Shown: positions 38,639 to 52,060 of the stretch, piece after piece | Position numbering within the stretch: position 1 is the stretch's first letter | Layout of the letters: the number at the start of each line of letters is the position of its first letter | NCBI GenBank assembly: GCA_028714255.1 | Contig: JAQTMR010000002.1 | Coordinates: forward strand, 1 to 64,000 | Source of the DNA: Phycisphaerae bacterium | Lineage (GTDB): Bacteria; Planctomycetota; Phycisphaerae; Sedimentisphaerales; Anaerobacaceae | Direction: 5' to 3' | DNA: 64,000 nucleotides | Position numbers and translations under genes: made by a program | Notes under the pieces: model-generated | What the model was told of the DNA's origin: nothing | Seen by the model: only the letters and a program-made list of their open reading frames with translations | Database searches by the model: none

Positions 38639-40342
38639 TTATGCCATGCTTTCCAGTATATCAAGTCCGTCCATCTCATTTATATTTTTGCCCGCAGGGA
38701 CCATCGGCCAAACATTCTCTTCCCGCTCGACCCTGAAGTCAACCACGCAGGGCTTCTTTTCTCCCAGCATCTTCTTTATCGCCCCGGCAACATCGGCCTT
38801 TTTATCGACGGTAATCCCGACCGCGCCGAGCGCCTCGGCTACCGTCGCGTAATCAGGGTTGGACAGGTAGCTCTTGGAGTAACGCCTGCCGTAGAAAAGC
38901 TGCTGCCACTGCCGAACCATTCCCATGTACCCGTTGTTCAAAATGCAAACCTTTATCGGCAGCTTATTCTCGACCGCCGTTGAGAGCTCCGTCATCGTCA
39001 TATTAAAACTATGGTCGCCGTCAATATCAATAACTATCGCATCGGGCCTGGCCACCTGCGCGCCAACAGCAGCAGGCAAACCGAAACCCATTGTCCCCAG
39101 CCCGCCCGAGCTTATGAAATGCCGCGGGCCGTGGAATTTGAAAAATTGAGCAGCCCACATCTGGTTCTGCCCGACGCCAGTGGTCACGATCGCCCTGCCT
39201 TCGGTCTGGCGACACAATTCCTCGATAACATACTGAGGCTTAATCGTCGATGCCTTCCTGTCATAACTAAACGGAAATTTCTTCTTCCACTCGGCTATTT
39301 TCTTGAACCACTCGGCCCTCTCACGATGCTCGACTTCTTTGAGTAGTTCAGTCAGTATATGCTTCGCGTCGCCGACAACAGGAATATCGACTTTAACATT
39401 CTTCGATATGCTCGTCGGGTCGATATCAATATGTATTATTTTCGCGTTCGGAGCAAAGCCTTTGACCTTGCCCGTAACCCTGTCGTCGAAACGAGCGCCT
39501 ATCGCTATCAACAGGTCGCATTCCTGAACTGCGTAATTAGCGTAAGCCGAACCGTGCATCCCGAGCATATCCAATGACTCGGGGTCGTTCTGGTCGAAAC
39601 TGCCCAGCCCCAAAAGCGTCATCGTTACAGGCAGATGCGCTTTCTGCGCCAACGCCCTTAACTCTTCGCTCGCATTAGCAATGACAACTCCGCCGCCGAC
39701 ATAAAGCACCGGCCGTTCCGATTTATTTATCGCCGCTGCCGCTGCCGATATCTGCCTCGCGTGACCTTTTGTCGAAACCTTATAGCCCGGCAAATTCATC
39801 TCGTTTCGCCCGTCCGTCTGGCACTTGGCAACCTGAACATCAACCGGTATATCGACAAGCACCGGCCCGGGCCGTGACGTCGAAGCGATATGAAACGCCT
39901 CTCGAATTACACGCGCCAGGTCCTTAACATCCTTAACAATGCAGTTGTATTTCGTAACAGGCCGCGTAATGCCGGTAGTGTCTGCCTCTTGAAACGCGTC
40001 ATTGCCGATAAGGTCCGTGCGAACCTGTCCCGTAAGAGCGACTAACGGAACAGAATCCATCATCGCCGTCGCAAGACCGGTAACAAGATTGCACGCGCCC
40101 GGCCCGCTGGTCGCGATAACAACGCCGACCTTACCGCTCGCACGCGCGTATGCGTCAGCCATGTGACAGCCGCCCTGCTCGTGACGCGGAATAATAAAAT
40201 TTATCGGCGCATCATATAATCTGTCGAACAAAGGCAGCACCACGCCGCCCGGATAGCCGAACACCGTATCAGCGCCCTGTTCGATGAGCGTATCGACGAT
40301 TATCTGGGCGCCTGTTTTTGTCTCATCTGATTTCTTTGCCAT
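38639..40342 (-). CDS. ilvB: Acetolactate synthase large subunit
   Basis: A 567-aa ThDP enzyme for branched-chain amino acids. N-terminal TGAQIIVDTLIEQGADTVFGYPGGVVLPLFD contains the GYPGG motif. The catalytic Glu is in PRHEQGGCHMADAYARASGK and the FAD region in IGARFDDRVTGK. The ThDP motif is DIDGDHSFNMTMTELSTAVENKLPIKVCILNN (GDG-x26-NN form, here GDH). ATG 40342 has GGAG 7 nt upstream. The frame continues upstream without a stop to an SD-bearing ATG at 40528, adding 62 residues that repeat the enzyme's own N-terminus (see separate entry). Confidence 0.95.
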   Translation of the reverse strand: MAKKSDETKTGAQIIVDTLIEQGADTVFGYPGGVVLPLFDRLYDAPINFIIPRHEQGGCHMADAYARASGKVGVVIATSGPGACNLVTGLATAMMDSVPLVALTGQVRTDLIGNDAFQEADTTGITRPVTKYNCIVKDVKDLARVIREAFHIASTSRPGPVLVDIPVDVQVAKCQTDGRNEMNLPGYKVSTKGHARQISAAAAAINKSERPVLYVGGGVVIANASEELRALAQKAHLPVTMTLLGLGSFDQNDPESLDMLGMHGSAYANYAVQECDLLIAIGARFDDRVTGKVKGFAPNAKIIHIDIDPTSISKNVKVDIPVVGDAKHILTELLKEVEHRERAEWFKKIAEWKKKFPFSYDRKASTIKPQYVIEELCRQTEGRAIVTTGVGQNQMWAAQFFKFHGPRHFISSGGLGTMGFGLPAAVGAQVARPDAIVIDIDGDHSFNMTMTELSTAVENKLPIKVCILNNGYMGMVRQWQQLFYGRRYSKSYLSNPDYATVAEALGAVGITVDKKADVAGAIKKMLGEKKPCVVDFRVEREENVWPMVPAGKNINEMDGLDILESMA

Positions 40343-40528
40343 TATATTTCTCCAATTTTCAGAATCTATCTCGTCGAACAGTGGAAGTACCGCCGCACCG
40401 GTATAACCGAAGATTGTATCGACCCCAAGCTCCAGCAAAGTGCGAACGATAATTTGCGCACCGGTAAGATACTCGATAGTTGGTTGGTTCCGGGCGGACG
40501 CGCCCGAAGAAACGACGTGAGAACACAT
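40343..40528 (-). pseudogene. In-frame partial duplicate of the ilvB N-terminus
   Basis: Sixty-two codons in frame with ilvB start at an ATG (40528) with its own AGGAG. They contain TGAQIIVRTLLELGVDTIF-GYTGAAVLPLFDEID, which matches IlvB residues about 10-42 at roughly 23 of 33 positions. Proline in GYPGG is changed to Thr (GYTGA). It is either a decayed remnant of a second ilvB, joined in frame, or an alternative N-terminal extension giving a 629-aa protein. Confidence 0.7.
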
Positions 40529-40529
40529 T

Positions 40530-40722
40530 GTCTGATACTCCTGATAAACATACCGTTATTCCAGCCGTGCACAGTTTTGCGGGCATTTCCCAATTGGCCG
40601 CCGTCGCCATACGCAGGCTAAGCTGCCAAATCAGGCTTTTACGCCCTTTCTGTAACACTGTAATCGCCCCTAATGGGCGTTTCAGGCTCGTGTTTGCATG
40701 TTTTTCACACAAACACGCCCAA
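40530..40722 (-). promoter_or_regulatory. Leader region of the ilv operon
   Basis: On the transcribed strand, CGTGTTTG (40717-40710) pairs with CAAACACG (40696-40689), and CGCCC/GGGCG (40665-40679) forms a second stem. No leader peptide rich in Leu, Ile or Val codons and no T-box is seen. Possibly regulatory. Confidence 0.35.
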
Positions 40723-40751
40723 ATTATACAAAGAAAATCAATCCCTGTCAA
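40723..40751 (-). promoter_or_regulatory. Consensus sigma-70 promoter for ilvB-ilvN
   Basis: On the minus strand, TTGACA (40751-40746), a 17-bp spacer and TATAAT (40728-40723). About 195 bp of leader separates it from the upstream ATG at 40528. Confidence 0.8.
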
Positions 40752-40829
40752 TTATTTTTCGACTTTTCCCGCCCCCGCCAATAACTCTTTTTACCCTTTT
40801 AAACGACCCCCCCCTTGCCCAATCCAAAA

Positions 40830-41062
40830 GCCTGCCGGTTTATCCGGCGGGTTTATTTCTTTTGTCATTCCTGCGCAAGCAGGAATCCAGAACCGTTTAG
40901 CCGTCGCCGCCTCGGCGACGCTGGTTAGCCCTGCCATCACCATGGCAGGGTTTGCTTGCCCCGTGAGATGCGCAGCTATCTCATCGGGGTCATTGCGAAT
41001 CCGCCGCAGGCGGATGCGGCAATCTCAAAATCGGTTAGCCCACATCTTTATGTTGTGGGTTT
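40830..41062. repeat. Second mosaic of hairpin repeats
   Basis: In order: GCCTGCCGG-ttta-TCCGGCGGG (40830-40854), GTCATTCC..CCAGAA (40864-40892), TTTAGCCGTCGCCG-hairpin (40893-40923), a 30-nt GTTAGCCCTGCC element identical to 18883-18912 (40924-40953), CCCCGTGAGAT..ATCTCATCGGGG (40959-40989), an ATTGCGAATCCGCC..GGCGGATGCGGCAAT hairpin (40991-41025) and GTTAGCCCACA..TGTGGG (41034-41061). No other gene lies in 40752-41047. Confidence 0.85.
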
Positions 41063-41266
41063 ACTTGTACTGCCCTCTGTCTTTATTCTTTGTTCTGCAT
41101 ATTGTGCCAGAAGCGATTCAAAACACTGCCAAAGCTCTTGCCGTTCTTTTGCTGTCAATTGGCATTGTAAAGCAAGCAATATTTCCCCAAGCGCCTCTTT
41201 CGTTGAATCCAATTCTTTGGTAGAGGGAAGTTTTCTGTTTTCAATTGCTGTTTGTGTATCCGACAT
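41048..41266 (-). CDS. Small hypothetical helical protein
   Basis: A 72-aa protein, MSDTQTAIENRKLPSTKEL..., followed by a helical segment (STKEALGEILLALQCQLTAKERQELWQCFESLLAQYAEQRIK). ATG 41266 has AAAGG 7 nt upstream. The last residues (SKPTT) and the stop are encoded inside a GTTAGCCC hairpin repeat, so the end was set by repeat insertion. No family is recognised. It probably belongs to the accessory region with the 442-aa gene upstream. Confidence 0.45.
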   Translation of the reverse strand: MSDTQTAIENRKLPSTKELDSTKEALGEILLALQCQLTAKERQELWQCFESLLAQYAEQRIKTEGSTSKPTT

Positions 41267-41343
41267 ATGTTTGCCTTTCAAAAAGCGTTAGTAAAAAACA
41301 ATCAATACTTCTAAAGGCAAACTACTCCAGATATGAAAATTTG

Positions 41344-42672
41344 TCAGTCCTGACGTTTGTCCTGACTTCGGCCTGACTTGCTTATGAGGAAGTGATACTT
41401 AGGTTCCAGAAAATAACCGGGGGCCTTGTTCCCAAGAATCCCTCTCTTGCGCAATGACGAAAGGGTACTTTTGAAGTTAGAGTTATATGGATAACCGGCC
41501 TTTGCAGCAAGTTTTTCACCAGTCATCTCATTTTTGTTCAATGCTTCGACTATATTGCTCTCTGTGTCTGTGAGGTCGTTTTGCTTTGCGTTAGCTGGAT
41601 TAGATATTTGCTGATTGCCGTTTGTATTCCGACTCTCAATATCACTCAATACCTCATTGTCTGATAGTTCTTCCAATAGATTGTACTGATGATAGCCAGC
41701 CTCGCTCCTCACCGCTCTACCGAGTTGGGCAATAGCGTACATAGCCTTTTCCGCATATTGCTTTTTGTCTTCGTGTAAAGTGTTATATAGCTGTCTAATA
41801 GGCGGTAATGTAGATATGTCTTTAGAGCTTCTGTATTGCTTCAACGCCCTAATAATTTCTTTTATTTCAAGTGGTTTAGAAGCAACAAGATTTTCTTCGA
41901 GTTCAGAAAAATGTCTTTTAATATCTCTGCTGGTATTGGCAATGCTTTCATCTAATTTAGAAAAATGTTGCGCAATGTCTATTTTAACTTTGCCAATGCT
42001 TGCATATAGTTCATCTCTGCTCCGCTCCAAAACCCCTATATAACCTGAGATGTGCCCCAGTATTTCAAACAAATAATAAAGATAATGATATTTATTGGCA
42101 TCTTCTGGATGTATTTTTTCTACCAATTTTCTTAGTAGCTTGATTTTTTCAGACAGTAAGCATAATCTCTCAATTTCTGCATTATACCAGCTATTAGAGG
42201 GCCTCGGTGGGTAGTTGGTAATGTGTTCACTATTTTCAATGTCACGCAATAATCTATCGATACTTTCTTGGCCTCCAAGAATCAATCTCTCAGGGACATA
42301 TTCGTATAATTTTTCAGTAAGGCTTTCTTTTAATAATTGAAGCCTTCGGCTTTCAATATCATCAAGCTGGCCTTTTTCTCTACCTTGCTTTAACCACTCA
42401 TACAAATCCTTAATATAATTATCAATTTCTTGTAATAGGACAACGTTACCATATGCCTGTCGATAAGCCCATTGCCTAAATAACACAATGTAATGGGTTA
42501 AATAATCTAATGTTTTAGACCATTTTTCTTTCCTACCATTAAAATATTCCAAAACCAGCGGCTCATCAATTTTCCCCCTAAGGTTTCCTTCCTTAAAAAG
42601 CGAGGCTATCCTGTCCGGGCTTATTGCGAGCACGCCCCCTAATGTTCCATATCTTATAAAGTCGTCAGTCAT
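41344..42672 (-). CDS. Hypothetical helical protein with C-terminal winged-helix-like domain
   Basis: A 442-aa protein, AT-rich relative to the housekeeping genes. A long helical N-terminal and middle region has coiled-coil character (IAQHFSKLDESIANTSRDIKRHFSELEENLVASKPLEIKEIIRALK). It is followed by a polar linker and a C-terminal TESNIVEALNKNEMTGEKLAAKAGYPYNSNFKSTLSSLRKRGIL, a winged-helix pattern. ATG 42672 has GGCGGGCGAAAG upstream; an upstream in-frame start at 42714 is less likely. Function unknown. It could be a regulator or the sensor part of an accessory system. Confidence 0.6.
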   Translation of the reverse strand: MTDDFIRYGTLGGVLAISPDRIASLFKEGNLRGKIDEPLVLEYFNGRKEKWSKTLDYLTHYIVLFRQWAYRQAYGNVVLLQEIDNYIKDLYEWLKQGREKGQLDDIESRRLQLLKESLTEKLYEYVPERLILGGQESIDRLLRDIENSEHITNYPPRPSNSWYNAEIERLCLLSEKIKLLRKLVEKIHPEDANKYHYLYYLFEILGHISGYIGVLERSRDELYASIGKVKIDIAQHFSKLDESIANTSRDIKRHFSELEENLVASKPLEIKEIIRALKQYRSSKDISTLPPIRQLYNTLHEDKKQYAEKAMYAIAQLGRAVRSEAGYHQYNLLEELSDNEVLSDIESRNTNGNQQISNPANAKQNDLTDTESNIVEALNKNEMTGEKLAAKAGYPYNSNFKSTLSSLRKRGILGNKAPGYFLEPKYHFLISKSGRSQDKRQD

Positions 42673-43088
42673 CTTTCGCCCGCCTTTCCTCGGGTCAATA
42701 CAGCATACTATCAATCAGCATAATTGACAACCAATTCCGATTAAAGCAAACCTAAATCGCCCTTCGGCCTAATCTGCGTAAATCCGCGAAATCAGCGTCA
42801 AAAAAATCCGTGTCCATTCGTGTTTATTCGTGGTTAACTTTTCTCTGCGAGCTTTGCGTTCTCTGCGGTTAAAACTTTCAATCAAAATCGCACCTACCAA
42901 CCCACCAAAACCGGCTAATTTAAAAATTTTTAATCCTTTTCTTCCCTCGAGTTACGAGAGACTAACGACGAGCGACGATTACATTTTTCAACCATTTGCG
43001 CATCTCCGCCCTTACTAAGAGAGAGATATTACATTATGAAAAAATCCGTGACAATCCGTGTTCATCCGTGGTTGCTTTTCTTATTTTA

Positions 43089-43130
43089 CTCGATACGAGA
43101 TACGCTTCACGCAATACGAGATTCGTTCAA
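43089..43130. repeat. 7-nt-period repeat array, CGAGATA type
   Basis: CTCGATA, CGAGATA, CGCTTCA, CGCAATA, CGAGATT and CGTTCAA run consecutively. A related array (TCGAGTT, ACGAGAG, ACTAACG, ACGAGCG, ACGATTA) lies at 42947-42981. Confidence 0.65.
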
Positions 43131-43320
43131 TCAAAAATAAAAAATTATGCAAAACGAACCCAATTTTAGAAAAAGTCAAATGCTTGTAACATTATTAAAA
43201 ACAACCAATTACAACGAAAAATCAACAATGGACACTTGGTCAAAACGAACCCAATCTGTAGTGAGCCTGCCTGCCCTGAGCTTGTCGAAGGGGTCGAACC
43301 GTTCGGCCCCCGTTCCTATT

Positions 43321-43350
43321 TTACTGCGTGGCTTCGCCACTGCGTAATAC
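43321..43350. repeat. 30-nt direct repeat, left copy
   Basis: TTACTGCGTG-gcttcgcc-aCTGCGTAATAC. The right copy at 44205-44234 matches at 28 of 30 positions. GAAACAACAGCAA also recurs (43414 and 44259). The pair brackets the 182-aa gene. Confidence 0.8.
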
Positions 43351-43591
43351 TAACGTCCCTCATTCCATGCCCTGTGAGATGCGCTGTTTGCTATCTCTCC
43401 GGGGCTGCCTACTGAAACAACAGCAACTTTTCCCTTGATTTTTCCTCGAAAATATGTTAAAATACTCGCCAGTTTGCAAGTAAGCAGACGACAAACCGCC
43501 CAGATAGGGCAAGTCTTCAGGCCGGCAGGCCAAGTTCAAATAATCATTAGTCAACAATGAACTATTAACTAATAACTAAGCGGAGCTTATA

Positions 43592-44140
43592 ATGGCAACC
43601 GACGCTCAAATCCTCGCCAATCGTCTTAATGCACTAAAATCAACAGGCCCGCGCACACCACAAGGCAAGGCCATCGTCTCACAAAACCCCGTTAAGCTCG
43701 GCCTGTTAGCCCAGCGCGATGTAATCGCCTCCGAGTCCCGTGCCGATTTCGACCTCTACCGTCAGCAGTTGCTCGATGAATTGAGCCCTATCAGCCCAAT
43801 GGAATCTATGCTCGCTGAACGCATTATTACCCTCTCTTGGCGTTTGAAGCGCATCTGCCGCTTCCAGAACCAGGCCATCGACACATTGAACGCAGATATT
43901 ACTTCCTCCCCATTAAGAAAACTCACCCAATCCTTCTTCCCCAAAACCCCCGGCCAACTGTCCGACTCCTCCGCCGACAACCTGCCCCTTGGCCGCTTGG
44001 CCGTAAAGGATTTCTCCAATTCAAGGGTTCTCGATAGATTGTTGATGTATGAAAGAAGGCTTGAGAGCAGTCTCTACAAAACCATCCTCGAATTTCAACG
44101 CCTGAACATCACCAGAAAACTTAAAGCCGAAGGCTTCTAA
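43592..44140 (+). CDS. Repetitive-family hypothetical protein (ANRLNALKSTGP type)
   Basis: A 182-aa protein. ILANRLNALKSTGPRTPQGKA near the N-terminus is the hallmark of a family found in many copies in planctomycete and acidobacterial genomes. The helical remainder (MESMLAERIITLSWRLKRICRFQNQAID, RVLDRLLMYERRLESSLYKTILEFQRL) has no catalytic motif. AAGCGGAGC lies upstream of the ATG. Near-identical direct repeats (43321-43350 and 44205-44234) flank it, suggesting a cassette that can be copied or moved. Confidence 0.7.
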   Translation: MATDAQILANRLNALKSTGPRTPQGKAIVSQNPVKLGLLAQRDVIASESRADFDLYRQQLLDELSPISPMESMLAERIITLSWRLKRICRFQNQAIDTLNADITSSPLRKLTQSFFPKTPGQLSDSSADNLPLGRLAVKDFSNSRVLDRLLMYERRLESSLYKTILEFQRLNITRKLKAEGF

Positions 44141-44442
44141 ACAATGAACTATGAACCACGAACTATTTGCTGTTGTGTCCTCCAGTTCGGCCACTGTTCT
44201 CATATTACTGCGTGCCTTCGCCCCTGCGTAATACACTGGTTCCTCATTCCGGCTTCCGGAAACAACAGCAAACTATTTTTACGTTTCCTCGTTCCGGCCT
44301 CCGGCAGCCCTGCGCAATACGGTTCAATCGAAATTGAACTATTCTTAAAAACAAACCCAATTTCCGAGAAACCCAAAATGAGCGAAGTATATACTAAACG
44401 CACAAACCTTGAAAACACCCCATTTAGCCAAAAACCCTGTTT
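44141..44442. repeat. Repeat-filled gap
   Basis: Holds the right 30-nt direct repeat (44205-44234), GAAACAACAGCAA (44259) with an inverted TTGCTGTTGT at 44167-44176, an AAAACAAACCCAATT word (44348) and the left copy of a 23-bp inverted repeat (44384-44406). No gene. Confidence 0.75.
44384..44406 (+). repeat. 23-bp inverted repeat, left copy
   Basis: GAAGTATATACTAAACGCAC plus three further bases. The exact reverse complement is at 47493-47515. It contains the palindrome GTATATAC. The two copies enclose the tRNA/IS1595/toxin-antitoxin segment. Confidence 0.85.
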
Positions 44443-44592
44443 TTAATCAGATTTTGGTGGCTTCTTGCCTTCTTTTGGCCAACCTTCTTTAGGGCGTTTC
44501 TTCTTAAGTGCTTTATTTACAGCACTTTGCCAATCGCCGTTGATTTTAAGTTGGTCTTCTTTTGGGCCTCTTTTGCCTACTCTTTTCGCCAT
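44443..44592 (-). CDS. 49-aa basic hypothetical protein
   Basis: Minus-strand ATG at 44592 opens MAKRVGKRGPKEDQLKINGD, then WQSAVNKALKKKRPKEGWPK and EGKKPPKSD, ending at TAA 44443. A high Lys/Arg content and repeated PKEG/RPKEGWPKEG units suggest nucleic-acid binding. I recall similar short proteins (GPKEDxLKIxGDWxxAVxKALxKKRPxxGWP) in mobile or phage contexts, but cannot name a family. It is divergent from the 130-aa gene, and codon use is that of a real gene, not chance. Confidence 0.6.
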   Translation of the reverse strand: MAKRVGKRGPKEDQLKINGDWQSAVNKALKKKRPKEGWPKEGKKPPKSD

Positions 44593-44626
44593 AATCCAAC
44601 TTTTTATTAAAAAAATAATTTTTTTC

Positions 44627-44654
44627 TTGGCGCTACAACGCCTAATGCTATAAT
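44627..44654 (+). promoter_or_regulatory. Sigma-70-type promoter
   Basis: TTGGCG (44627-44632), 16-bp spacer, TATAAT (44649-44654), followed by TGCTA. The transposase promoter at 45432 shares TATAATTGCTA. Confidence 0.6.
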
Positions 44655-44697
44655 TGCTATTTAGTTAATAACGCCTTATTATCATAAGGAGCTTAAT

Positions 44698-45090
44698 ATG
44701 AGTAGTATTATAAAAGAACGAATCGCAGAAATCAAATCGGAAATCCAAAAATTGGAAGCCGAAGTAAACCTCAAAAAAAATGTTCTCAAAGAATTAGAAT
44801 CATTAAACAGCACAAAAAAACAAAAATCCTCAAAGCGAAAAAACAAACAACCTCGAAAAGGTTCTTTAGTTGAATATCTCGTAACAGTATTAAGTGAATC
44901 GCCTGTCCCTATGCCGAATCCTCAAATTGTTGAATCACTTTTAAAACACGGATATAAAACTAATGCAAAAGTAAGCGTGAATAATCTTGTGCCGTCATCG
45001 CTCTCAAAACGCCCCGACCTTTTCTTCCGTGCTCGGCACGGCGTTTATGGCCTTATAGGTAAACATCAACAGACGAATCAAGGAGATTAA
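44698..45090 (+). CDS. Coiled-coil plus winged-helix hypothetical protein
   Basis: A 130-aa protein. An N-terminal coiled coil (IKERIAEIKSEIQKLEAEVNLKKNVLKELESL) and a lysine-rich linker precede a winged-helix-like domain. This reads GSLVEYLVTVLSESPVPMPNPQIVESLLKHGYKTNAKVSVNNLVPSSLSKRPDLFFRARHGVYGL. The domain resembles the HARE-HTH/HB1 pattern (final F..R..GVYGL). An AAGGAG lies 10 nt before the ATG. It is probably DNA-binding; target and role are unknown. It lies inside the inverted-repeat-bounded segment. Confidence 0.65.
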   Translation: MSSIIKERIAEIKSEIQKLEAEVNLKKNVLKELESLNSTKKQKSSKRKNKQPRKGSLVEYLVTVLSESPVPMPNPQIVESLLKHGYKTNAKVSVNNLVPSSLSKRPDLFFRARHGVYGLIGKHQQTNQGD

Positions 45091-45097
45091 AAGGATT

Positions 45098-45131
45098 GGG
45101 CCGAAGCGATGCTTGTAACATCGTCCGGCCC
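45098..45131 (+). terminator. Strong hairpin after the winged-helix gene
   Basis: GGGCCG-aag-CGATG-cttgtaa-CATCG-tc-CGGCCC, immediately after the stop at 45090. There is no long T-run; a rho-independent role is possible but weak. Confidence 0.5.
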
Positions 45132-45222
45132 TTACGAAATTTTGTATGTCACGGATTAGGCAACATACGCTTACGTTTTTATTATGGCCTCGTGCGCCAC
45201 CACTGTCAAGAAAAAATCCTTT

Positions 45223-45256
45223 GGATTAGGCGTGGATTCCCGTCTGCGCCTAATCC
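45223..45256. repeat. 10-bp perfect hairpin upstream of the tRNA
   Basis: GGATTAGGCG (45223-45232) pairs with CGCCTAATCC (45247-45256) around a 14-nt loop, 8 nt before the tRNA. GGATTAGGC also occurs at 45153-45161. It may be part of a precursor RNA or a mobile-element recognition site. 45132-45222 holds nothing else. Confidence 0.7.
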
Positions 45257-45264
45257 TCTTTCGT

Positions 45265-45349
45265 GCCCCTGTGGTGAAATTGGCAGACACGCGGCATTTG
45301 GAATGTCGCAGCCCGCGTGGCTATCTCGGTTCAACTCCGAGCAGGGGCA
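45265..45349 (+). tRNA. Class II tRNA, leucine-like body, anticodon UGG (Pro)
   Basis: Acceptor GCCCCTG (45265-45271) pairs fully with CAGGGGC (45342-45348), discriminator A 45349. D-arm GTG/CAC with an AAATTGGCAGA loop, close to leucine tRNAs. Anticodon stem CGGCA/TGTCG, loop TTTGGAA, giving anticodon TGG at 45299-45301. A long variable arm (AGCC-cgcgt-GGCT) and T-arm CTCGG-TTCAACT-CCGAG complete a class II fold. A leucine-type tRNA would need A35; UGG reads CCN proline codons. CCA is not encoded. A T-run follows. It may be a mutated tRNA-Leu(UAG), a specialised tRNA or a decaying copy. Confidence 0.8.
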
Positions 45350-45431
45350 CATTTTTTATATCGTCTATATTAGCGTTTTGTCATAAGAAAATCAAGTTAA
45401 AAAGAATTTTTAATAAATTATAACTTTTTAC

Positions 45432-45459
45432 TTGACGCACAAAATTGCCGATGTATAAT
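45432..45459 (+). promoter_or_regulatory. Sigma-70-type promoter of the transposase gene
   Basis: TTGACG (45432-45437), 16-bp spacer, TATAAT (45454-45459), 7 bp before the transposase ATG. The message would be nearly leaderless, with no SD visible. Confidence 0.65.
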
Positions 45460-45466
45460 TGCTACT

Positions 45467-46450
45467 ATGAGAAACGAAAACAAAAAACCCATTAAAGCAA
45501 AAGACAAGATTGTTGCAGAATTGCCATTAGCCTGTATGGACGAAACGGCGGCTGTTGAGTTTATAGAAAAGCAACGTTGGGGTAATATGCCTGCTTGTCC
45601 GCATTGTGGCAGTCTTAACGTAACCAAAATGACCGATGGTAACGGTGGACGAAATAGGCGGTTTTTATGGCGTTGCCACGATTGTAAAGAACAATATACA
45701 GTCCGCATCGGTACGGTCTTTGAGGATTCCAGATTACCTTTAAGGCATTGGTGTTATGCTTTTTGGGCCGCTTGCGCTCATAAAAAAGGTGTAAGTGCTT
45801 TACAGATTAGTAGGCAATGTTTGATTACTTATAAATCGGCCCTTTTCCTAATGCACCGTGTTCGTTATGCTATGACCGAACCAAATCCTAAACAGCAATT
45901 AAAAGGTGTAGTAGAAGCGGACGAAACTTATGTAGGCGGTAAACCCCGACGGGGAATAAAAGATATTCAGATAGACCACCGCAAACACAACCGCTACGTA
46001 GGTCGAGGTACAAAGAAAACCCCCGTGTTAGCATTAGTTGAACGTGGCGGCAATGTTCGGGCAAGAATAGTCCCGAATGTTACGGCAAAGACATTAGGCA
46101 AGATAATGCCAAAAGAAATACACCCTTCATCGCGCCTTATGACTGATAGCTTTAGAGTATATCGTAGCATCGGAAAGAATTTTGCAAGTCACGATACTGT
46201 TAATCACGAAATCGGCGAATATGCTCGTGGTGATGTTACATCGAATACGGCAGAGTCGTTTTTTGCTATTCTAAAACGTGGCATTTACGGGACTTTTCAC
46301 GCAGTTTCAAAAAAGCATTTGCATAGATACATTGATGAATTTTCTTTTCGTTGGAATACACGCAAGATAACTGATGGGGAAAGAATTACAGCGGTGATAA
46401 AAGGCGCAGACGGCAAACGCTTAATGTATCGACAACCAATAAATAGTTAA
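45467..46450 (+). mobile_element. IS1595-family (ISXO2-like) transposase
   Basis: A 327-aa transposase. An N-terminal zinc ribbon (CPHCGSLNVTKM...WRCHDCKEQYTVRIGTVFEDSRLPLRHW) is typical of IS1595. The ISXO2-like DDE domain follows, with VVEADETYVGGKPRRG (first Asp), LMTDSFRVYRSI (second Asp) and NTAESFFAILKRGIYGTFHAVSKKHLHRYIDEFSFRWN (final acidic/Asn region). The frame is intact and the length normal, so it may be active. I could not identify its own terminal inverted repeats or target duplication. It ends 4 bp before a convergent toxin gene. Confidence 0.9.
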
Positions 46451-46454
46451 TTGG

Positions 46455-46877
46455 TTAAGAATTGTAACACTTATGATGGCGGTCTAACCATCTTACAAAG
46501 AAAGTATCGCCAATTATAAAGCCCAATACTCGACCGTGTTCGTGTTCTGTGATATTAAATTGATAAGCTTCATCATTTAAATCAGTTCTGTTGGGTATAT
46601 TAAAACCATTTACCGAGACGCGTCTATCGACCCAATTAATTGGGTGCATTCTTAAAGATTTACTTCGGTTTTGGTGAAACTCCTTCATTGGCCAAGTAGA
46701 TACGTCTCTTAAACGACTTAACAAAGTGGAAAGGTAAGTTTCGGTGACATCTTTTATGGAAAATGAACTATGTGATAGGTCTAAGTATTTAAAAGAAAAT
46801 CTAATCAAACCCTTGGCAGTATCTTCTAATCGTGGAAACGCAGAATCTTTAGGAACTGGTGTCTTGCCAAACTTCAT
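46455..46877 (-). CDS. Putative toxin partner of the Panacea antitoxin
   Basis: A 140-aa protein. LEDTAKGLIRFSFKYLDLSH, LSTLLSRLRDVSTWPMKEFHQN and LRMHPINW lead to the C-terminal GRVLGFIIGDTFFVRWLD followed by RHHKCY. That ending is the GRVxGFxxxxxFYxxWLDxxHxxY pattern of a family often encoded next to DUF4065/Panacea genes. It looks RelE-like in its final beta strands. The start is 6 nt after the panA-like stop (46884), giving an antitoxin-first operon. Toxicity is inferred from context. Confidence 0.6.
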   Translation of the reverse strand: MKFGKTPVPKDSAFPRLEDTAKGLIRFSFKYLDLSHSSFSIKDVTETYLSTLLSRLRDVSTWPMKEFHQNRSKSLRMHPINWVDRRVSVNGFNIPNRTDLNDEAYQFNITEHEHGRVLGFIIGDTFFVRWLDRHHKCYNS

Positions 46878-46883
46878 CGTTTT

Positions 46884-47342
46884 TTAGACAGGAGACTTTA
46901 ACAGGGACATAAAATAATTTTTCATTGTCAGTGGGTTTATCGGGTTTGTGCAAAGTGCATCTATTGGCAAGCCGCCTCTTGCCTCAATCCAAGGAACTTC
47001 ACGATGAACCATTTTTTCTAATTCAAAGGCATCAATAGACAGATAAGAATTAAGAAATCTATCTAACCATTTTTTCAATTCTTCCGGTAAAGAAGGAAGT
47101 TCTACTTCTTCATTAATTGGCAACCAAGCTTTTCTATATTTTCTATAAATGGAAGGTATAACAGGGCCGTGAACCCAAGCTTCAAATTTATCTTCAAATA
47201 AATTTTCGTTTTTATGTGCTAAATGCCAACCTTGTGCATAATACAGCAATTTTTGAAGTTTAAGATTGGTGATTAATTCGCCTGTTTTGTTGGCAAAATA
47301 AATAATGTATTTAGCAATATCTAATGCGGTTAGCTGTCCCAT
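46884..47342 (-). CDS. Panacea-domain antitoxin (SocA-like, DUF4065)
   Basis: A 152-aa protein. TNLKLQKLLYYAQGWHLA and FEAWVHGPVIPSIYRKY are the two core motifs of the DUF4065/SocA/Panacea family. The family is known as a versatile antitoxin domain (PanA) that neutralises diverse toxins. ATG 47342 has AGGAG upstream; a longer frame to 47477 lacks family similarity in its extra part. It directly precedes the 140-aa gene, so it is the likely antitoxin of a PanAT-type module. No DNA-binding domain is fused. Confidence 0.8.
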   Translation of the reverse strand: MGQLTALDIAKYIIYFANKTGELITNLKLQKLLYYAQGWHLAHKNENLFEDKFEAWVHGPVIPSIYRKYRKAWLPINEEVELPSLPEELKKWLDRFLNSYLSIDAFELEKMVHREVPWIEARGGLPIDALCTNPINPLTMKNYFMSLLKSPV

Positions 47343-47699
47343 TTTTCTTACTCTCCTGTGCCATCCATTATATACCTTTTCATCGGATTTCAAAAGTAAA
47401 CTTGATAAATATTTTAAAAATTTACGAATTAACATTGGTTTTTCCCTTAAATTTTGCGGTTTTTGCTGAATTGACAAAAAATCCCCTATTTATTTGTGCG
47501 TTTAGTATATACTTCCGCAAAATGAACTTAACCATCTATTTGACAACAACTAACAACCAAAAACTATGAACAATGAACCATCAAAAACAAACCCAATTCA
47601 AACCCAAACAAAGCCAATTTCAAAACGTACAAAAAGTAACTGGCTTAAAGCCAAATGGATGCTATAATGAGTTCTTGTAATAAAATTAGGAGGCTTTTT
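47343..47699. other. Gap upstream of the toxin-antitoxin pair
   Basis: It contains the right 23-bp inverted repeat (47493-47515) and an AAAACAAACCCAATT word (47584). A TATAAT at 47663-47668 probably serves the NifU-like gene. 47343-47477 is open on the minus strand upstream of panA, but without recognisable content. Confidence 0.55.
47493..47515 (-). repeat. 23-bp inverted repeat, right copy
   Basis: Exact reverse complement of 44384-44406. It marks the right edge of the 3.1-kb segment. Confidence 0.85.
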
Positions 47700-47972
47700 A
47701 TGTGTGAAAAATGCGGCTGCAGCGGAACCAACGCCGAGCAAACATTAGAGCAAAAAGTAACTGACCTGATAGACTCCGTAATTCGACCTGCCCTTCAGGG
47801 CCATGGTGGAGATGTCGAGTTGATAGGAATAGACGACGACAAAAATATCAAATTGCGCCTGCAGGGTGCCTGCCAGGGCTGCCCCGGCGCCGCGATGACT
47901 ATGAAAGCCGGCATCGAAAGACTCCTCAAGGAAAAACTTCCAGAAGTCAACAAGGTCATCGCCGTAAATTAG
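47700..47972 (+). CDS. NifU-like Fe-S scaffold protein
   Basis: A 90-aa protein. The Nfu/NifU C-terminal domain LIDSVIRPALQGHGGDVELIGIDDDKNIKLRLQGACQGCPGAAMTMKAGIERLL carries the cluster-binding CxxC (CQGC). A short Cys-rich N-terminus (CEKCGCSGTN) is extra. ATG 47700 has AGGAGG 8 nt upstream, and TATAAT lies at 47663. It would deliver Fe-S clusters to apoproteins. The 3' end overlaps mtnA by 4 bp. Confidence 0.92.
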   Translation: MCEKCGCSGTNAEQTLEQKVTDLIDSVIRPALQGHGGDVELIGIDDDKNIKLRLQGACQGCPGAAMTMKAGIERLLKEKLPEVNKVIAVN

Positions 47973-49045
47973 TTATCTACTGTTTGCTTGAAGTGCTCGG
48001 TGATTTTTTCAGGCGTTGGCTTTTCTATTACCCCTCTTTCGGTAATAATAGCGGTAATGTCCTTTGCGTCTGTAACATCGAAAGCGGGATTATAAATCTC
48101 AACTCCATCAGGCGCGATTCTTTCACTGCCCAGGAATCTAATTTCATCCGCCGACCGTTGCTCGATAGGAATTTGGCTGCCGCTTTTTATATTCAAATCG
48201 AATGTGCTCGATGGCGCAGCTATATAAAAAGGTATCCCATGTTCCCTCGCCAGAATACTTACGCTGTAAGTTCCGATTTTATTCGCCGCGTCCCCATTGG
48301 CCGTGATTCTATCGGCCCCTGTTACAACAGCGCCGATTTTGCCCTGCTTCATCAGCCAACCCGCCATATTGTCGCAAATAACCGTTGCGCCAATCCCTGC
48401 CTGTTTCAATTCCCACGCCGTCAACCTGGCGCCTTGCAGCAAAGGCCTTGTCTCATCGGCATAAACCTTGAACTTTTTTCCTCTCTTGTGCGCCTCGAAT
48501 ATTACCGACAGCGCCGTCCCCTGCCCTGCGGTCGCCAGAGCGCCAGCGTTGCAGTGCGTCAAAACACCAATGCCATCCTTGATAAACTTCTCCCCGTTTT
48601 CCCCGATTCGCCGGCACATATCCACGTCTTCCTGACAAATCGCATTCGCCTCGCCTAAAACAACTTCCTGCAGTTTCGACAAGGCTGCATTGGTTTGGCC
48701 AACGGCAAAATCCTTAGCTTTGTCTTCGACCCTCTTCAGCGCCCAGAATAAATTCACCGCCGTCGGACGCGACGAGCCAAGATACTCGACAGCTTTTTTC
48801 AAACATTCAATCGCATCGGATATCGACGCTTGAGATTTAAGTTTCTGTATAGCCAGAACCAGCCCGTAAGCTCCCGCAACACCTATCGCCGGGGCACCAC
48901 GAACAGTAAGCGTCTTAATCGCTTCGTAGAGCTGCTCGATGTCCCTGCATTGCATTTTGACAAATTCGCCGGGCAATCGCCGCTGGTCCACAAGCTCCAG
49001 AAAGCCATCAACACCGCCAACCCATTTAACTGCTGCTGTAATCAT
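47969..49045 (-). CDS. mtnA: S-methyl-5-thioribose-1-phosphate isomerase (MtnA family)
   Basis: A 358-aa protein of the eIF2B-like isomerase fold. TVRGAPAIGVAGAYGLVLA, LTHCNAGALATAGQGTALSVI (catalytic Cys), VYADETRPLLQGARLTAWEL and GADRITANGDAANKIGTYSVSILAREHGIPFYIAAPSSTFD (catalytic Asp) match MtnA. It converts MTR-1-P in methionine salvage; some homologues act on related sugar phosphates. No other salvage genes are near. Confidence 0.92.
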   Translation of the reverse strand: MITAAVKWVGGVDGFLELVDQRRLPGEFVKMQCRDIEQLYEAIKTLTVRGAPAIGVAGAYGLVLAIQKLKSQASISDAIECLKKAVEYLGSSRPTAVNLFWALKRVEDKAKDFAVGQTNAALSKLQEVVLGEANAICQEDVDMCRRIGENGEKFIKDGIGVLTHCNAGALATAGQGTALSVIFEAHKRGKKFKVYADETRPLLQGARLTAWELKQAGIGATVICDNMAGWLMKQGKIGAVVTGADRITANGDAANKIGTYSVSILAREHGIPFYIAAPSSTFDLNIKSGSQIPIEQRSADEIRFLGSERIAPDGVEIYNPAFDVTDAKDITAIITERGVIEKPTPEKITEHFKQTVDN

Positions 49046-49071
49046 TAAAAAGCCCCACTTGCCAAAATCTC

Positions 49072-51933
49072 TTACTTCTTGCTATCAGCTTTTAATTTGT
49101 CCTTTAAATACCTTGCCGTATAACTCTTTTTGTTTTTGATAATTTCCTCCGGCTCACCAGAGGCCACTATCTCTCCGCCGGCCTCTCCGCCTTCCGGGCC
49201 GAGGTCTATTATATAGTCCGCCATCTTGATAACGTCAAGATTATGTTCGATTACCACAACGGTATTACCCATATCGCACAATCGGCCAAGCACATTCAAG
49301 AGGTTGTGGATATCGGCAAAGTGCAGTCCCGTCGTCGGTTCATCGAGCAGATACAAAGTACGCCCCGTAGCGGCCTTGCCCAATTCAGCGGAAAGCTTTA
49401 CCCGCTGCGCCTCCCCGCCTGACAGCGTCGTTGACGACTGGCCCAATTGCAGATAGCCCAGCCCGACATCGTTGAGCGTCCGCAGTATCCGCACAATCGT
49501 CGGAAAATTAGTAAAGAAATCTATCGCTTCTTCAATCCTCATATCGAGTATCTGTGCGATATTCTTGCCTCTATACGTAACCTGCAGCGTCTCCGGATTA
49601 TATCGACTGCCTCGGCACGCCTGGCAGGTCACGTAAACATCGGGCAGGAAATGCATTTCTATCTTTTTTGTCCCCTGTCCCCTGCACTCCTCACATCGCC
49701 CGCCTTTGACGTTGAAGCTGAATCTTCCCGCCTTATAGCCGCGAATCTTCGCCTCCCGCGTCATCGAAAGAAGTTTTCTTATCAAATCAAACGTGCCGGT
49801 ATATGTCGCCGGATTGCTCCTCGGCGTTTTGCCTATCGCCGACTGGTCTATTTCTATTACCTTGTCTATCTGAGAAGCGCCGAGAATCGTCTTGTGTTTG
49901 CCGGGCTTTTCGCGAGACGAATAGAGCCGGTGCTTCAACGCCCTCAATAAAATCTGACTTACGAGAGTGCTCTTTCCGGAGCCCGAAACGCCTGTCACGC
50001 AGGTAAATACCCCCAGCGGAAATTTCACATCGAGATTTTTAAGATTGTGCTCTGTTGCGCCTTTTACTTCGAGGCACCTCTTAAGATTGTAACTTCTTCT
50101 CTTTGTCGGCAGGGTTATGCTTTTTCTCCCGCTTAGATAATCGCCTGTCAACGATTCGCAGCAGCCGAGAATCGTCTCGTAGCTGCCCTGGACGACGAGT
50201 TCGCCGCCACGCTCACCCGCCGCCGGGCCGATATCGATAATATGGTCCGCACTTTTGATAATATCCTCATCGTGTTCCACAACCAAAACCGTATTGCCGA
50301 TTTTGCTGAGGTGCTTGAGTATGCCCAGCAGCCGGTCGTTATCCCGCTTATGCAGACCTATTGTCGGCTCATCAAGAACATAGCAGACCCCCACCAGGCC
50401 GCTGCCGACCTGTGTGGCCAGGCGAATCCGCTGCGATTCTCCGCCTGCGAGCGTGCTGCTTTTTCTATCCAGCGTCAGATAACCAATCCCGACATCGACC
50501 ATAAATTGCAGCCGGGCCTTTATCTCCTTTAGTATCTGCTCTGCAATTATGGACTGTTCATGGTTCAATACCAATTTGTTGAAAAATCCCCGCGCCTTCT
50601 CGATACTCAACGAGGTCAACTGATTTATATTCAGGCCTCCTACTGTCACGGCAGCAGCTTCGGGCCGAAGCCGTGTCCCGTTACAACTTTGGCATGGCAG
50701 CTCTCCAAAATAACTGTGCAGCCTGGCCTTAACATACTCGCTGCTGGTCGTCTTCCATCGCCGCGTAAGGTTCGGTATAATCCCTTCGAACCGAAAGCCG
50801 TAAGTTTTTGTATCCGACGTTGTCGTGCCATACATTAGAATATTTCTTATCTCTTTCGGTATCTGCTCGAACGGAATCGTTTTACTAATACCGACATTCC
50901 TGCAGAACTTTTTTATCAGCCGGTTGTAGTAAATGTTCATTCGCTTGCCGCCTTTGCGCCAGGCCTCGACGGCCCCGTGCTCCAGCGAGATGCTCTTGTC
51001 CGAAACGATTAAATCCGGGTCAAACTCCAGTATTGTCCCAAGGCCGTCGCAGCTTTTACATGCGCCGTAAGGACTGTTGAAGCTGAACAGCCGTGGTGAC
51101 AGCTCCTCGAGAGACGCCTGCGGATGCTTCGGACAGGCAAACTTTTCGCTGTATATGACTTCCTTCCACTTATTGTCCTTGCCGCTTTTTGCATCCGTGT
51201 CCGGCTTCTGCACCAGAACAAGCACTATCCCCTCAGCTAACTTCAGCGCCGTCTCCACCGAATCCGCCAGCCGAATACGGACCGACTCTTTAATAATCAA
51301 CCTGTCAACGACTGCGGCGATGTCGTGTTTTTTGTTCTTGTCCAAAGGCGGAACATTCTTCAAATCATAAATCTCACCATCAACACGCACACGCACAAAG
51401 CCCTGCTGTTGTATGCCGGAGAAAATATCTCGATGTTCGCCTTTTTTGCCGCGAATCAGCGGAGCGCATATCTGGACTTTCGTGCACTCCGGCCGGGTGA
51501 GTATCGATTCGACTATCTGCGATGAGTGCTGGCTTGTAATTTCTTTGCCGCAAACCCAGCAGTGCGGCTGGCCTGTGCGGGCGAAAAGCAATCTGAAATA
51601 ATCATAGATTTCGGTAGTTGTAGCAACCGTCGAGCGAGGGTTGCTGCTTGCGCTGCGCTGCTCGATTGCAATAGTAGGCGGCAGACCCGTAATCTCTGCG
51701 ACCGCAGGCTTTTGCATCTGTTCGAGAAACTGTCTGGCGTAAGCGCTGAGCGACTCGACATATTTTCTTCTGCCCTCGGCGAAAATAGTGTCAAAGGCCA
51801 GTGAGCTTTTGCCGGAGCCGGAAATCCCCGTAATCACCACCATCTTGTCCCGCGGAATGGTCAGGTTGATGTTTTTGAGGTTGTGCTCGGCCGCACCTGT
51901 AATCTTAATCACTTTTTCCGCTCTTCCCGCCAT
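49072..51933 (-). CDS. uvrA: UvrABC excinuclease subunit A
   Basis: A 953-aa ATPase for nucleotide excision repair. Two ABC modules are present. Walker A motifs are GISGSGKSS and GVSGSGKST; signatures are LAGGESQRI and LSGGEAQRV; Walker B is [12 protein letters not shown] and [11 protein letters not shown]. The first zinc module is shown by CWVCG, and the second by [32 protein letters not shown] 51933 was chosen because [22 protein letters not shown] is the usual start. Divergent from nfi. Confidence 0.96.
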
Positions 51934-52060
51934 AATTATCTCTTTACTGCCGAAAGCATCTGTCCGTGAAAAATGCACAATAACACAAACTAATAATTGT
52001 ACCAAAATGCCATAAGAAAGTAAAATGTTTTCGTTGCGCGAGCAGGAAGTCTTAATAAGT

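Follow-up and report, generated by a model that had tools for sequence, protein, structure and literature searches.

Leucine-type tRNAs with non-leucine anticodons in IS1595-family transposons: a UGG tRNA from a Phycisphaerae bacterium and its relatives

To our knowledge, there are few natural tRNAs with a mismatch between anticodon and identity, and they have mostly been viewed as curiosities. Among the described cases are the allo-tRNAs (Mukai et al. 2017, reviewed in PMC7609411), class II tRNAs of environmental bacteria with a mismatch between anticodon and body. Their acceptor branch has 12 bp (8/4 or 9/3), their identity is that of serine or alanine, and a link to a transposon was noted for one of them and suggested in general (PMC7609411). 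The tRNA-ProX/ProRSx system of Streptomyces is likewise a natural mismatch of anticodon and body and a potential deliberate mistranslator; it combines a proline body with Ala, Asn, or Thr anticodons and a dedicated synthetase (PMC11415595). As to charging, E. coli tRNA-Leu owes its identity to A73 and the hinge region, the determinants being A73, A15-U48, G18G19, and A20a, and not to the anticodon (PMC9976931). The determinants of bacterial ProRS are C1-G72, G15-C48, and G35/G36, and A73 is also a proline determinant (PMC9976931).

We analyzed a stretch of 64,000 nucleotides from a Phycisphaerae bacterium (the window), in which ARAGORN finds one tRNA only, at 45265-45350 on the + strand, with the label Pro(tgg). 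ARAGORN, RF00005 (47.3 bits, above the cut-off), a cloverleaf check, and covariation support a class II tRNA of the leucine type with a UGG anticodon at 45265..45349 (+). The acceptor, D, and T stems have 7, 3, and 5 bp, and the 5-bp anticodon stem CGGCA/TGTCG encloses the loop TTTGGAA, which yields the anticodon UGG. A variable arm of 16 nt has a 4-bp stem, and the layout of D arm and variable arm is that of leucine tRNAs. A73 is present, and CCA is not encoded. The initial annotation had described the same closure with 7, 3, 5, and 5 bp and the same A73, both confirmed by reading the strand, as well as a leucine-type class II body with a long variable arm, which the cloverleaf check and RF00005 bear out, and the UGG anticodon, on which ARAGORN and the cloverleaf check agree. 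A GGA (Ser) register of the anticodon arm was rejected since the stem is unpaired in that register.

The host genome (2.41 Mb) has a complete leucine set of its own (UAA, CAA, GAG, UAG, CAG) and, elsewhere than at the window gene, proline tRNAs with UGG, GGG, and CGG. Hence, the window tRNA is an extra gene. An origin by a single A35G change from a UAG anticodon had been proposed, together with a comparison with the host tRNA-Leu(UAG). This comparison revealed widely differing bodies, and the proposal does not fit this distance, the lack of a second blastn match to the window tRNA in the host genome, or the presence of the UGG form in dozens of elements from many phyla. Searches of plasmid and phage records following up the window locus gave no match.

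The tRNA is enclosed by an IS1595-family transposon of 3,136 bp (44382-47517). The left terminal inverted repeat GCGAAGTATATACTAAACGCACAAA (44382..44406, +) and the right one (47493..47517, -), which reads CGGAAGTATATACTAAACGCACAAA on the - strand, match at 24 of 25 positions. Identical 8-bp copies of the target-site duplication CAAAATGA flank the element at 44374..44381 and 47518..47525. Its DDE transposase of 327 aa (45467..46450, +; PF12762, E 4.6e-43) carries a zinc ribbon (PF12760, E 8.5e-13), and a promoter-like TTGACG-16-TATAAT with 11 of 12 consensus positions precedes the gene (45432..45459, +). DDE transposase with zinc ribbon, inverted repeats, and 8-bp duplication are all those expected of the IS1595 family, and judged by its repeats and perfect duplication, the unit is an intact element. 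Synteny with the same-genus genome G152 is lost before the insertion site, and no empty site was seen there. We conclude from this architecture that a cut-and-paste transposon carries the tRNA as cargo. The mobile surroundings that had been suspected are thus borne out by repeats, target duplication, and transposase. The transposase reported beside the tRNA is present, but the tRNA actually lies inside the transposon. Similarly, the suspected toxin-antitoxin pair is a gene for a Panacea (SocA-like antitoxin) domain protein (46884..47477, -; PF13274, E 2.7e-19), which is cargo of the same transposon.

Further cargo comprises an ORF of 140 aa (46455..46877, -) with no Pfam or PADLOC family and a small accessory ORF of 49 aa (44443..44592, -) with the motif GPKxxxLKIxGDWxxAVxKALKKKRPxEGWPK. 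The latter has no Pfam family, and its homologues adjoin a tRNA or transposase at nine other loci, including L073, L089, L148, L174, L178, and L194. Panacea-domain genes occur near UGG tRNAs at two unrelated loci, in the window and, as seen by eye, upstream in L177.

Relatives were searched in viral contigs and about 85,000 genomes with patterns for a leucine-type D arm followed by UGG. A14, A15, G18G19, and A20a were part of the pattern; the independent identity checks are A73, U48, and the T arm only. Among 397 genomes of the class, there is one close relative only (L032, from another family), a class II UGG tRNA that adjoins an IS1595-type transposase. The cloverleaf check kept 50 genes, 46 of them distinct, as well-formed class II UGG tRNAs; 95 of the 145 pattern matches were set aside because the anticodon stem, the T stem, or the acceptor did not pass. 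Read from their sequences, many of the latter look like tRNA-Leu genes split by group I introns.

For 25 of the 46 distinct UGG tRNAs, the fetched DNA contains an IS1595 transposase, mostly less than 100 nt from the 3' end of the tRNA. The available DNA around the other 21 shows no such gene, in some cases because the contig breaks off. As a control, the same scan with UAG, the anticodon of an ordinary tRNA-Leu, gave an IS1595 transposase at 0 of 120 loci. On viral contigs alone, 7 of 13 UGG tRNAs are accompanied by the transposase compared to none of the 120 UAG controls (Fisher p = 1.4e-8); with one duplicate removed, it is 6 of 12 (p = 1.4e-7). According to the record titles, hosts of the transposase-linked tRNAs include Planctomycetota, Acidobacteriota, Alpha- and Gammaproteobacteria, and Chloroflexi. 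In related elements, CGGAAGTATGTACTTGACGCAA-type inverted repeats bracket the upstream gene, the tRNA, and the transposase jointly, with the same CGGAAGTATGTACTTGACGCAA-like consensus as in the left repeat of the window. When we started from transposases, 92 elements with inverted repeats and identical 8-bp flanks were obtained, of which 24 enclose a class II tRNA. Repeats are weak (14/22) in a few of the 92, which may be chance findings, and match at 16-22 of 22 positions in the elements with a tRNA.

Two other kinds of tRNA came up. In Prevotella (L163:5483-5569 and L176:863-949), a class II UGG-like tRNA with a damaged acceptor end and T73 lies near a VapC-like PIN-domain gene; no IS1595 was seen, and it is probably a separate case. 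At L377:5149-5331, the halves of a leucine-type tRNA are split at the anticodon by a long GC-rich insertion, outside a nearby transposon.

So that the anticodon would not be selected for, we queried with IS1595 transposases and scanned the DNA around them with ARAGORN and a covariance model. From this side, 23 leucine-type tRNAs were reached, with the anticodons UGG (14), UGC (4), AGG (2), UUA (ochre; 2), and GGA (1). None of the 23 has a leucine anticodon. As the query alignment itself was built from UGG-linked transposases, the share of UGG may be inflated. In one genome (G066), an element with UGG coexists with another that has UUA. By this comparison, the body of the cargo tRNAs stays class II and leucine-type, and their anticodon is never that of leucine and usually UGG.

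The fold itself is conserved. In an alignment of 20 tRNAs, 97.1% of the pair cells hold standard pairs, compared to 65.6% after shuffling, and for 20 of 24 pairs, both partners have changed. The covariation score of the cloverleaf is 0.862, compared to 0.225 for shuffles and at most 0.165 for slid controls. The variable-arm stem, which lay outside the filter, is paired in 88.8% of the cells, again with both partners changed. A FastTree tree of 156 transposases places that of the window in a clade of 28 with an SH support of 100, in which 22 carry a tRNA. Over the whole tree, the label "tRNA-carrying" needs 17 changes, whereas shuffles need 32.9, and 0 of 500 were as low. The UGC elements L324, L326, L548, and L549 form one sub-clade together with one UGG element (L550). 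The clustering of the label at the level of clades and the UGC sub-clade imply that the tRNA and the kind of anticodon are retained over long periods. According to these alignments and this tree, a deep clade of IS1595 transposons, present in several phyla, has persistently carried such tRNAs.

Upstream of the tRNA, the element encodes a coiled-coil protein (44698..45090, +), and a gene of this kind recurs on the strand of the tRNA in many tRNA loci. The protein probably contains a winged helix; its matches are sub-threshold, with HARE-HTH as the only one (E 0.07), and a structure model from the lone sequence (pLDDT 64.5) is confident for the coil only. The gene could be a regulator. Directly 5' of the tRNA lies a hairpin of 15 pairs (45223..45256, +) with a score of 12.6 compared to a maximum of 8.2 in shuffled sequences. 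Most related loci have a comparable hairpin at most about 100 nt upstream of the tRNA; these hairpins have 10-15 bp, an unconserved sequence, and loops often with CTAGGA/TTAGGA-like motifs. A role as terminator was rejected: the window copy passes the scan, but most relatives have no T tract after the hairpin, which is thus unlike an ordinary terminator. In L167 and L189, a ribosome site and a short ORF of ~20 codons (MLRR...SNRA) are found about 100-133 nt upstream of the tRNA. The ORF is conserved between both, overlaps a hairpin, and is leader-peptide-like.

Inside or beside several IS1595 elements, there are also tRNA-like RNAs with no D arm (L194:2970-3037, L544:5174-5244, L403:2514-2582, L418:4701-4769, L322:5909-5975, and L455:6029-6102). 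They have a tmRNA-like acceptor GGGG...CTCCA with G3:U70; acceptor and T arm are common to all, and they match none of the families examined. One is 17 nt upstream of the UGG tRNA in L194, another 3 nt downstream of the UUA tRNA in L544.

Which amino acid would such a tRNA carry? The window tRNA resembles bacterial tRNA-Leu in its class II cloverleaf and in the LeuRS determinants A73, A14, A15-U48, G18G19, and A20a; it differs in the anticodon, which is UGG in place of NAG or NAA. A73 and U48 are each found in 45 of the 46 UGG tRNAs. G35, G36, and A73 are features of tRNA-Pro as well, but with G1-C72 and A15-U48, the window tRNA does not have the C1-G72 and G15-C48 of tRNA-Pro, and the host has a ProRS of bacterial type. 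As the leucine determinants are present and the bacterial ProRS determinants C1-G72 and G15-C48 are absent, the window tRNA is likely charged with leucine by the host LeuRS rather than with proline.

We therefore favor, with some reserve, the reading that the transposon carries a missense tRNA which is charged by the host LeuRS and puts leucine at CCA and CCG. The tRNA would be transcribed, perhaps together with the upstream coiled-coil/winged-helix gene as its candidate regulator, and matured by RNase P and the CCA-adding enzyme. LeuRS, which in bacteria recognizes A73 and the corner of D loop and variable arm instead of the anticodon, would then charge it, and leucine would be inserted at the proline codons CCA and CCG. 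That the element gains from miscoding is a matter of speculation; a controlled toxin or addiction module or a module for mistranslation under stress may be examples. Leucine in place of proline throughout the proteome should carry a high cost, which makes strong expression unlikely. In a small sample (window 38639-52005), CCA accounts for 6 of 74 proline codons in three host genes and for 12 of 38 in the element genes. A tRNA misreading with UGG should thus meet few CCA codons in host genes, as far as this sample goes. An extended proposal is that a broad IS1595 clade maintains leucine-accepting tRNAs that have been retuned to codons for proline, alanine, or serine or to stop codons, and spreads them along with a regulator gene. 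The accuracy of the host code would then be under the control of a selfish element, with a tRNA as toxin or switch. We put this forward tentatively and consider it more doubtful than the reading for the window tRNA.

Of the alternatives, mimicry of a tRNA with no role in decoding survives best, yet we regard it as unlikely. The gene would then supply a tRNA-like RNA that the element needs for processing by RNase P, for stabilizing RNA, or as a decoy that draws off synthetases or tRNA-cleaving toxins, and the non-leucine anticodon would avoid competition with leucine decoding of the host. The D-armless RNAs with G3:U70 in some IS1595 elements, beside the class II tRNA in L194 and L544, are in line with this, as are the hairpin preceding most of the tRNAs and the finding that some irregular allo-tRNA-like RNAs from soil are not charged by E. 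coli enzymes (PMC7609411). However, the anticodon loop of 7 nt with U33 is intact in nearly all relatives, and UGG is kept across deep divergence of the transposases. Since an inert anticodon should drift, this retention argues for selection on decoding.

It is less probable still that the gene is a proline tRNA in class II shape, charged by ProRS through G35/G36, which decodes proline normally and aids the CCA-rich genes of the element. G35, G36, and A73 are proline determinants (PMC9976931), and the CCA counts given above, small as the sample is, point the same way. Apart from the bacterial type of the host ProRS, this is opposed by the pair 1-72, which is G-C in 35 of 46 tRNAs, by A at position 15, and by position 37, which is A in 33 of 46 and G in the host tRNA-Pro. 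Moreover, the cargo tRNAs of sister elements with UGC, UUA, or GGA do not fit a role in proline decoding.

We give very little credit to a dedicated missense or nonsense suppressor that reads a codon of the transposon's own gene as leucine. The variation of anticodons among elements, including UUA (ochre), would suit such a function. Yet, in comparison with relatives, the CCN codons of 16 tRNA-linked transposases correspond to proline at 18-41% and to leucine at 1-2%, and the transposase of the UUA element is without an internal stop. As these CCN positions align with proline, reading them as leucine was rejected, and the transposase does not need the misreading. Finally, a degenerate leftover, as in the pseudogene option of the initial annotation, or a sequencing error of tRNA-Leu(UAG) can practically be dismissed: the gene occurs only once in a draft assembly with 39 contigs, but the same form recurs at many independent loci with perfect stems, a conserved and strongly covarying cloverleaf, and conserved A73, and the comparison with the host also speaks against a slip.

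The missense reading aside, a large set of mismatched tRNAs is given a specific and recurring genetic home, the IS1595 transposons, across phyla. It seems that tRNAs with the potential to misread the genetic code are being spread by a whole family of transposons. Why miscoding tRNAs persist hence becomes a testable question on mobile elements, the IS1595 association is a simple rule for finding more mismatched tRNAs, and these natural class II tRNAs may serve as starting points for genetic-code work.

A literature search with partial coverage gave no description of tRNA cargo in IS1595 elements. The association of leucine-type tRNAs carrying non-cognate anticodons with IS1595 appears to be new with respect to the papers covered, and the Ser-type allo-tRNAs appear to be the nearest described case. 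With the IS1595 family (DDE_Tnp_IS1595, ISXO2-like), the elements share the transposase domains, the terminal repeats, and the 8-bp duplication; the members found here differ in that an intact tRNA gene and a regulator-like gene belong to their cargo. Compared to tRNA-ProX, the window tRNA has the reverse arrangement of a leucine body and a proline anticodon and is borne by a transposon, and no synthetase gene, and hence no ProRSx, is found among the cargo genes of the element. Unlike the allo-tRNAs, it has neither the 12-bp acceptor branch noted above in its 8/4 or 9/3 form nor serine identity but a regular 7+5 branch, a leucine-type D loop, and A73, and among the tRNAs inside IS1595 transposons to which it belongs, UGG is the usual anticodon.
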